A stretch of DNA of 64,000 nucleotides from Terriglobia bacterium. Its GTDB lineage: Bacteria; Acidobacteriota; Terriglobia; UBA7540. The notes beneath the pieces are model-generated. The model had not been told where the DNA came from and ran no database searches. It saw nothing but the letters and a program-made list of their open reading frames with translations. Shown here piece after piece: positions 17,819 to 22,627 of the stretch. The stretch's first letter is position 1. Each line of letters opens with the position of its first letter. The DNA is taken from NCBI GenBank assembly GCA_035712365.1, contig DASTAW010000001.1, positions 1 to 64,000 on the forward strand. The letters are read 5' to 3'. The position numbers and the translations under genes are program-made.

Positions 17819-17910
17819 CAACGCCTCCATTGCAACAAGACATAAGAAATCAAAGTTTGTATTATACCTACGCGGATGATCGGGTCTGTAGCGTCGGACG
17901 GGAGGCCATC

Positions 17911-18477
17911 ATGGCATGGATCAAAATTATCGAACCCAAAGACGCAACCGGCGAGTTGAAGAAAGAATACTCAGCGGCTGTCAAGCGCGCCGGAAAAGTT
18001 TTCAACATTCTGCAGATCCAGAGCCTGAACCCGAAAACCCTTCGCGCTTCGATGCGCCTCTACCTGGCAACCATGCACGCTCCGTCCGGGCTTTCCCGCG
18101 CCGAACGCGAGTTGCTGGCCGTCGTGGTCTCCCGGGCCAACAATTGCTTTTATTGAATCGAAGCTCACGGGGAGGATCTCCGTCGAGAAAGCGGCGACGC
18201 AAAGCTGGCCGAACACGCCAAGCACAATTATATGCGCGCCAGGCTTCCGGCCCGCAGCAAAGCCCTGGCAAAATTCGCCGAACTCGTCACGCGCGCTCCG
18301 GCTACCGTTCGCAAGAAGCATGTTGACATGCTTCGCAAACACGGCCTTGGCGACCGCGACATCCTCGACGCCGTTGAAATTATCGCCTATTTCAATTACA
18401 TCAACCGCGTAGCCGACGCGCTGGGCATCGATCCCGAACCCGAAATGCGCGCGGCCTACGAGTACAGGCTGGAGTAG
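17911..18477 (+). CDS. AhpD-family peroxidase-related protein, predicted selenoprotein (in-frame TGA)
   Basis: Reading through the TGA at 18154-18156 gives a single 188-residue protein homologous throughout to AhpD-like, carboxymuconolactone-decarboxylase-type peroxidase-related enzymes. The AhpD catalytic signature E-x11-C-x2-C-x3-H is met as Glu67, Cys79, the TGA codon at 82, and His86, so the stop falls exactly on the second redox Cys and would be selenocysteine. Similarity continues after it (IEAHGEDLRRESGD..., YFNYINRVADALGIDPEPEM). GGGAGG lies 5 bp before the ATG at 17911. A hairpin directly after the TGA fits a bacterial SECIS. The alternative is a nonsense mutation or sequencing error; selenocysteine genes are not in this window. 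Confidence 0.8.
18157..18187 (+). promoter_or_regulatory. Predicted bacterial SECIS hairpin
   Basis: Starting just after the TGA, TCG (18158-18160) pairs with CGA (18184-18186) and ACGG (18167-18170) with CCGT (18180-18183), leaving a 9-nt apical loop (18171-18179) that contains GG. The loop begins 14 nt past the TGA, close to the range reported for SelB-binding elements. The lower stem has an asymmetric bulge and is weak. Confidence 0.5.
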
Positions 18478-18517: not shown

Positions 18518-18579
18518 GTAGCGCCGCCGTCCCGGCGGCATTTTTCGCGGCCGGCACCGCTTGGCGGGACCGGCGCTAC
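18518..18579. repeat. GTAG-type REP pair (inverted)
   Basis: GTAG at 18518-18521 starts the hairpin GCGCCGCCGTCCCGGCGGC; a second GC-rich hairpin ends in CTAC at 18576-18579. It sits in the gap between the AhpD-like gene and the following secreted protein gene. Confidence 0.75.
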
Positions 18580-18700
18580 GGAAATCCGTCGCTCTATTAT
18601 GCAATCTCTTTCGCCCCCTCTGTCGCTGTACTGCGGTGCGGGCGTAGCCCGTGTTACATGGGCCTTTGTGTTATAATGCGCACACAGTCGAGGGTCCGCC

Positions 18701-21707: not shown

Positions 21708-21756
21708 GTAGGGGCACGGCTTGCCGTGCCCTGGGTAGGGCAAGCCCTACCCCTAC
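21708..21756. repeat. GTAGGGG REP element at the RAYT stop codon
   Basis: A single 49-bp unit, GTAGGGGCACGG...CCCCTAC, with two internal hairpins. The RAYT stop codon (21753-21755 on the minus strand) is the TAG of its right foot. Confidence 0.85.
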
Positions 21757-22394
21757 GGCATATTCGGGTTTTCGGGATCTTCCAACCAATGCTGAGGATT
21801 GTGAGCGATATAATCCCGAATCATCTCCAGCTCGCCGACGTCGCGTATGATGTGCTCGTAAAAATTCTTTTGCAAAGGGCGCGCTCCCGGGCGCGACCCC
21901 AATTGGTTCAGGGCGATGGTGCTGATCGATTTAAACGCTCCCACCACGTCACCCATGCTGGTGCGGCGGGGCGTCGTGTGTTGTAGGGGCACGGCTTGCC
22001 GTGCCCTGGGTAGGGCAAGCCCTACCCCTACGGTTCTCGTGGGCGGGTCAAGCCCCGCCCCTACGCCGGATGGTTGAATCACGGGGGCGCCCGTCGCCAC
22101 GGCTATGGCGGGTTCCAATCCAAGTCCCGGCAAAACAAAAATCGCGTGCAAATGGTTCGGCATCATCTGAAACGCATCCAGAACCACTGACCCGAACCGC
22201 TGCGGCAATCCATGCCAGACTCGCTGCACAAACCTCCCGACCTCATTCAAGATCATGCTGCCCTCGACGATTTCACCGAACAGGCATTTCCTGGCCTGGG
22301 TGCATATGGTGACAAAATACGCGCCGCCTCCCGCGTAATCGTATCCGCGCAGGCGAATGGACCGTCGATGATGTATTCGCGGATCGAACGCCAT
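21753..22394 (-). CDS. REP-associated tyrosine transposase (RAYT)
   Basis: The 213-residue product is an IS200/IS605-like Y1 HUH nuclease of the RAYT type: GYDYAGGGAYFVTICT at 18-32, the HUH motif HLH at 81-83 (MMPNHLHAIF), and the catalytic Tyr in FYEHIIRD (Tyr179), followed by IRDYIAHNPQHW. Known RAYTs act on REP palindromes with a GTAG foot. Residues about 111-139 are encoded by a REP element lying inside the gene in frame, between the HUH motif and the catalytic Tyr. The frame is open upstream to 22571, but only because it crosses another REP; the ATG at 22394 begins the conserved sequence. Confidence 0.9.
   Translation of the reverse strand: MAFDPRIHHRRSIRLRGYDYAGGGAYFVTICTQARKCLFGEIVEGSMILNEVGRFVQRVWHGLPQRFGSVVLDAFQMMPNHLHAIFVLPGLGLEPAIAVATGAPVIQPSGVGAGLDPPTRTVGVGLALPRARQAVPLQHTTPRRTSMGDVVGAFKSISTIALNQLGSRPGARPLQKNFYEHIIRDVGELEMIRDYIAHNPQHWLEDPENPNMP
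21983..22064. repeat. GTAGGGG REP pair inside the RAYT gene
   Basis: The first unit (21983-22031) is the same 49-bp element as at 21708. A second, shorter hairpin (GGGCGGGTCAAGCCCCGCCC) ends in CTAC at 22061-22064. It lies wholly within the RAYT coding region and keeps the frame open. Confidence 0.9.
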
Positions 22395-22416
22395 TGTTGT
22401 CACCTCACGTCCGGCT

Positions 22417-22498
22417 GTAGGGGCACGGCTTGCCGTGCCCTGGGTAGGGCAAGCCCTACCCCTACCGTTCCCTGGGGCGGGGCAAGCCCCGCCCCTAC
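22417..22498. repeat. GTAGGGG REP pair upstream of RAYT
   Basis: The same two-part structure as at 21983-22064, with GTAG at 22417-22420, a middle CTAC at 22462-22465 and a final CTAC at 22495-22498. It starts 23 bp from the RAYT start codon. Confidence 0.88.
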
Positions 22499-22627
22499 AA
22501 CGTGCGGCCTTGCCTCGATGGCGGCGACATCGTGGAAACCACCTGATTCTTTTCCACCGCACGTTTGTCAAAAACCTCAGGGAGAATGTGCTTAAGGCGA
22601 TATCATGCCTTTAGTTTTACCACATGT

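Follow-up and report, generated by a model that had tools for sequence, protein, structure and literature searches.

The interval 17911-18477 of the window (the whole stretch of 64,000 nucleotides that was analysed, from contig DASTAW010000001.1 of a Terriglobia bacterium) almost certainly encodes, about as firmly as sequence allows, an AhpD-like selenoprotein, in which an in-frame TGA at codon 82 would be read as selenocysteine (Sec). Computation establishes the gene, the conservation of its TGA, the constraint on a hairpin that follows, the genome's full Sec machinery and the fold family to which the product belongs. The locus has the following features:

17900-17905, forward strand: GGGAGG, ribosome-binding-site-like, just 5′ of ATG 17911 (direct sequence reading).
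17911-18477, forward strand: predicted gene for an AhpD-like selenoprotein (TIGR01926 / COG2128) of 188 residues, Sec being residue 82 (translation, profiles and 29 homologues in other genomes).
18109-18111, forward strand: codon of Glu67, the proton-relay glutamate of the AhpD motif (invariant in alignment A2; counterpart of Glu118 in Mycobacterium tuberculosis AhpD, PMC3141380).
18145-18147, forward strand: codon of Cys79, the first (partner) residue of CxxU (at least 90% conserved in alignment A2).
18154-18156, forward strand: in-frame TGA (codon 82) in place of the second Cys of CxxC, read as putative selenocysteine (TGA also in homologues, as counted below).
18164-18187, forward strand: bacterial SECIS-like hairpin with the apical loop GGA at 18174-18176 (fold, pairing conservation and codon constraint).
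18166-18168, forward strand: codon of His86, the proton-relay histidine of the AhpD motif (invariant in alignment A2; counterpart of His137 in M. tuberculosis AhpD).
18475-18477, forward strand: stop TAG of the AhpD-like gene, codon 189 (translation).

The original prediction described an AhpD-family frame that opens at 17911 and is interrupted by TGA 18154-18156, and this description is borne out by the translation and by the profile matches. Exactly two stop triplets fall in frame between 17911 and 18477, namely the TGA at codon 82 and the terminal TAG. With the TGA taken as Cys, the full-length product matches TIGR01926 (‘peroxidase-related enzyme’) over residues 2-178 of 188 with 171.8 bits, the curated cut-off being 81.8 bits, and the Pfam family CMD over residues 41-93 with 60.3 bits; both matches span codon 82, and the similarity therefore runs on across the TGA. 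The translation also confirms that the TGA falls, as had been claimed, on the second Cys of the AhpD signature, Glu67, Cys79, codon 82 and His86 having the spacing E-x11-C-x2-C(U)-x3-H. Past the TGA the frame stays open for 106 codons, which composition alone predicts in about 3% of cases, so that the case is carried by conservation and not by the open frame alone.

In 200 related genomes, 30 close loci were found, namely the window's own and 29 homologues with identities of 46-82%. Of these homologues, 28 have TGA at codon 82 and one (L048) has TGG; neither TGC nor TGT occurs there in any of them, so that an isolated sequencing error can be ruled out. Cys forms carry Cys at the Sec position (motifs CFYC, CLYC and CDYC). 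The two halves of the gene are under the same purifying selection, with median dN/dS values of 0.14 ahead of the TGA and 0.17 past it (153 sequence pairs). A nonsense mutation or a sequencing error in an ordinary Cys-type AhpD-like gene, i.e. a pseudogene, would produce just such a picture in one genome with a single stop in an otherwise intact frame, but it is in effect refuted by the conservation of the TGA across genomes, as well as by the equal dN/dS on its two sides and the frozen codons of the hairpin (see below), and its probability is close to nil.

When the phylum was sampled more widely, a strong match was present in 74 of 297 genomes, in most of them with an internal TGA; a named relative among the homologue genomes is Acidobacteria MAG, isolate Ww59. 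Paralogues in related Acidobacteriota (L055-L085) fall into several additional AhpD-like subfamilies in which the Cys position of codon 82 is likewise TGA (motifs CVYU/CHYU-IESHAEFLRR and CPFU-IGSH), with Cys forms (CFYC/CYFC) alongside. Judging from these motifs, AhpD-like selenoproteins seem to be numerous in related Acidobacteriota. A UxxU motif was considered for the paralogues and rejected, the second TGA, TAA or TAG being the terminal stop in those inspected.

A hairpin with GG in its apical loop had been proposed immediately after the TGA, at 18158-18186. The hairpin is real, but these limits had to be corrected: the core stem is formed by 18167-18173 pairing with 18177-18183 around a GGA loop (ACGGGGA-GGA-TCTCCGT, 18167-18183), and in the fold it is lengthened by CTC/GAG (18164-18166 with 18185-18187), with one bulged base. 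The UGA and the GGA loop are 17 nt apart, and the apical loop contains G. Taken as a single sequence, the hairpin has an unremarkable fold energy (z -1.2), and its significance therefore rests on the comparison with relatives.

That comparison demonstrates constraint at the RNA level. In 18 close sequences, a single codon is used at five of the six hairpin codons (H, E, D, L and R; Leu and Arg have six codons each), and not one of the 82 other conserved degenerate codons of the gene is fixed in the same sequences. The sole variable hairpin codon is that of Gly (GGG or GGA), and its pairing is kept as G-U or A-U. Across 33 sequences, 99.6% of cells are paired, whereas sliding the partner gives 29-59%, two pairs are compensatory (G-C to C-G in L040 and A-U to C-G in L124) and none of 500 shuffles was as good. 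In the closest 25 sequences, where covariation amounts to one change, 17 of 500 shuffles were as good. The conserved hairpin is absent from the Cys relative L054 (SKYC, in the same family-level group) and from the CLYC and CDYC Cys forms. The rows of L100, L101 and L115, in which the motif had been located wrongly, were left out of the comparison of hairpins among homologues.

The majority of the Sec members examined use the 17-nt GGA-loop hairpin. Twelve homologues are without this stem and instead have CGACCTC-(CGGGCC)-GAGGTCG seven bases further on, with a G in a loop that begins 24 nt after the UGA. This second hairpin is 100% paired in the twelve, U-A replacing C-G in L119 as the one compensatory change, and 86 of 500 shuffles were as good because few positions vary; as a SECIS-like element it is thus suggested less firmly than the first. 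That one SECIS has given way to another of different register within a single AhpD-like selenoprotein family, Sec being kept, has in our estimate slightly better than an even chance of being correct.

The exceptional homologue L048 (G061:C29:44867-45409) differs at all of these points together: the TGA has become TGG, a G-G mismatch stands at the fourth stem pair and the loop reads GTA in place of GGA. In its congener L046 the TGA, the stem and the loop are all intact. The genome of L048 retains tRNA-Sec and SelB, so that the loss is limited to this gene. L048 is a probable case of the loss of Sec from one gene with its hairpin decayed alongside, a single event that is illustrative and not statistical.

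A lack of selB or tRNA-Sec in the genome had been named in advance as a result on which the original prediction would fail; both were found, along with selA and selD, in the source genome (4.67 Mb, 98.9% complete). The tRNA-Sec scores 68.9 bits against a cut-off of 47 and is called by ARAGORN as tRNA-SeC with anticodon TCA; profile searches detect a full-length SelB (353.7 bits), SelA (580.5 bits) and SelD (377.6 bits). Together with the conserved TGA and the hairpin constraint, this machinery supports what had been proposed, namely a likely selenoprotein. The SelD gene (L017, G000:C33:124245-125168) has one in-frame TGA of its own, in the segment KAAG-U-AAK, and SelD itself is thus probably a selenoprotein, which makes it likely that the genome has at least two selenoprotein genes. 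Among the 29 genomes with the TGA gene, the window's genome included, 28 have tRNA-Sec or SelB, and the remaining one is an 80%-complete assembly in about 990 contigs. More generally, tRNA-Sec or SelB is found in 54 of 55 genomes with the CxxU homologues examined, compared with 98 of 145 other genomes (Fisher P = 5.5e-7, relatedness being ignored in this as in the other Fisher tests and in the E-values).

A reading of the TGA that dispenses with selenium, either as tryptophan (genetic code 4 or 25) or through readthrough by a near-cognate tRNA, might appeal to the tryptophan codon TGG of L048, but that homologue is also the one without the hairpin, and the Cys homologues have Cys at this position. 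Moreover, TGA terminates 11 of the 21 long open frames in the window and release factor 2 is present in the genome (508 bits), so that TGA is an ordinary stop elsewhere. On this stop usage, on release factor 2, on the Sec machinery and on the Cys homologues the tryptophan assignment was rejected, and decoding without selenium is scarcely less improbable than the pseudogene dismissed above.

It is unlikely, albeit less so than these two, that the UGA acts as a regulated stop which mostly terminates translation to give an 81-residue product, with Sec readthrough being minor or dependent on selenium. The release factor 2 in the genome speaks for such a regime, and bacterial selenoprotein genes in general are subject to competition from this factor at their UGA. 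Yet a product of 81 residues would include neither the Sec position nor His86 and would consequently be without an active site, and selection past the TGA is as strong as ahead of it. Full-length translation with Sec at residue 82 is the preferred reading.

The predicted structure of the full-length protein (with Cys for Sec) has a mean pLDDT of 95, and its closest solved folds are the Cys-type AhpD-like proteins 6k40 (from Deinococcus radiodurans), 2pfx (from Silicibacter sp.), 3c1l, 2prr and 2oyo, with TM of about 0.8-0.9 (0.81-0.90 for the peroxidase-related proteins such as 6k40 and 2pfx); all of these have Cys where the window protein would have Sec. The CFYC motif of 2pfx aligns with CFYU of the window protein, and where 2pfx reads HGAAVR the family of the window gene has HGEDLR, encoded by the hairpin. 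The proton relay of M. tuberculosis AhpD consists of Glu118, Cys130, His132, Cys133 and His137, and in Pseudomonas aeruginosa PA0269 the position of His132 is occupied by Tyr (PMC3141380). The counterparts of these residues here are Glu67, Cys79, Tyr81, Sec82 and His86, with the same spacing of Glu, the CxxC or CxxU pair and His, the M. tuberculosis protein having Cys instead of Sec. By this equivalence Sec82 would occupy the place of Cys133, which we take to be the residue attacking peroxide.

We infer the actual incorporation of Sec, and likewise the catalytic activity, the substrate and the reductant of the AhpD-like protein, for which the following course is proposed. With the downstream GGA-loop hairpin as its guide, SelB would deliver Sec-tRNA(Sec) to a ribosome positioned at UGA 18154-18156; Sec would be put in at residue 82, and translation would go on to the TAG at 18475. 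In the all-helical fold, Cys79 and Sec82 would form a CxxU redox pair, with Glu67, Tyr81 and His86 arranged around it as they are in the proton relay of AhpD. A (hydro)peroxide or disulfide substrate would most likely be attacked by the selenol of Sec82; Cys79 would then resolve the oxidised selenium, giving a selenenylsulfide to be reduced by a cellular thiol system. The likely role is thus that of a selenol-based hydroperoxidase or thiol oxidoreductase.

As a variant of this explanation, the full-length selenoprotein may be a redox adaptor or a thiol-disulfide oxidoreductase and not a peroxidase, to which we give a substantial chance, if one somewhat short of even. For AhpD proper, the role described is that of an adaptor completing the AhpC/AhpD system, and the reduction of H2O2 by PA0269 is only weak (PMC3141380), which makes an adaptor role as possible as a peroxidase role. 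Against the adaptor counts that no partner gene adjoins the locus, the upstream neighbour being without a Pfam match and the downstream one matching CarboxypepD_reg in the profile search. As between peroxidase and adaptor or oxidoreductase activity, the balance appears near even.

Conserved operon partners were considered and set aside, the neighbours of the window gene being different from those of its relatives: at most nine relatives have common flanks, with (by eye) a sensor histidine kinase-like gene downstream and an amino-acid permease-like gene upstream, and no functional link is therefore drawn. About 40 bases 3′ of the stop of the selenoprotein gene, at 18518-18581, there is a GC-rich near-palindrome (TAGCGCCGCCGTCCCGGCGGC ... 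GGCGGGACCGGCGCTA), a candidate terminator or repeat element. Elsewhere in the window, four copies of a palindromic repeat of about 83 bases (GTAGGGGCACGGCTTGCCGTGCCC...GGGTAGGGCAAGCCCTACCCCTAC) lie between 21162 and 22499, around an open reading frame on the reverse strand (21753-22571) whose protein (FDPRIHHRRSIRLRGYDYAGGGAYFVTICTQ...) resembles by eye a REP-associated tyrosine transposase; repeats and reading frame are likely to constitute a mobile unit of the REP/RAYT type.

That AhpD-like selenoproteins were already known, as the original prediction stated, agrees with the literature in both model and motif. AhpD-like selenoproteins of COG2128 were counted in 2006 (PMC1794560), 299 marine sequences followed in 2008 (‘AhpD-like 1’ of the GOS survey; PMC2398784), a 2022 review contains the family under COG2128 (PMC9312934) and the selenoprotein table of a 2026 review has an entry ‘AhpD-like protein, TIGR01926, CxxU’ (PMC13188914). 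Compared by model and motif, this published family (TIGR01926 / COG2128 YciW; reference MCB9421940.1; PMC9312934, PMC13188914) has the same model and a CxxU motif with Sec second, the difference being that the lineage of the window gene belongs to the Acidobacteriota. The gene thus adds a member to an established family and does not represent a new kind of selenoprotein; a specific report of an AhpD-like selenoprotein gene in this lineage was not found in the literature searched. The model NF041238, AhpD-related (seleno)protein (CFYUT), has the C-F-Y-U motif in common with the window protein and matches it in part, but membership of AhpD_rel_CFYUT was rejected at 85.1 bits against a cut-off of 175, with a profile 357 positions long. 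With the AhpD subfamily model TIGR00777 the protein scores 29 bits, far below the cut-off of 192.

The finding widens the range of a known selenoprotein family to include a lineage that is represented mostly by metagenome assemblies. At this locus, gene callers for which every TGA is a stop would probably give two truncated genes and miss a Sec-dependent redox protein. The comparison also offers a clean case of RNA-level constraint within coding sequence, comprising hairpins in two registers and a single natural loss. If the replacement of one SECIS by another is true, the AhpD-like family would represent a natural series of SECIS elements moving and decaying under a conserved protein sequence.
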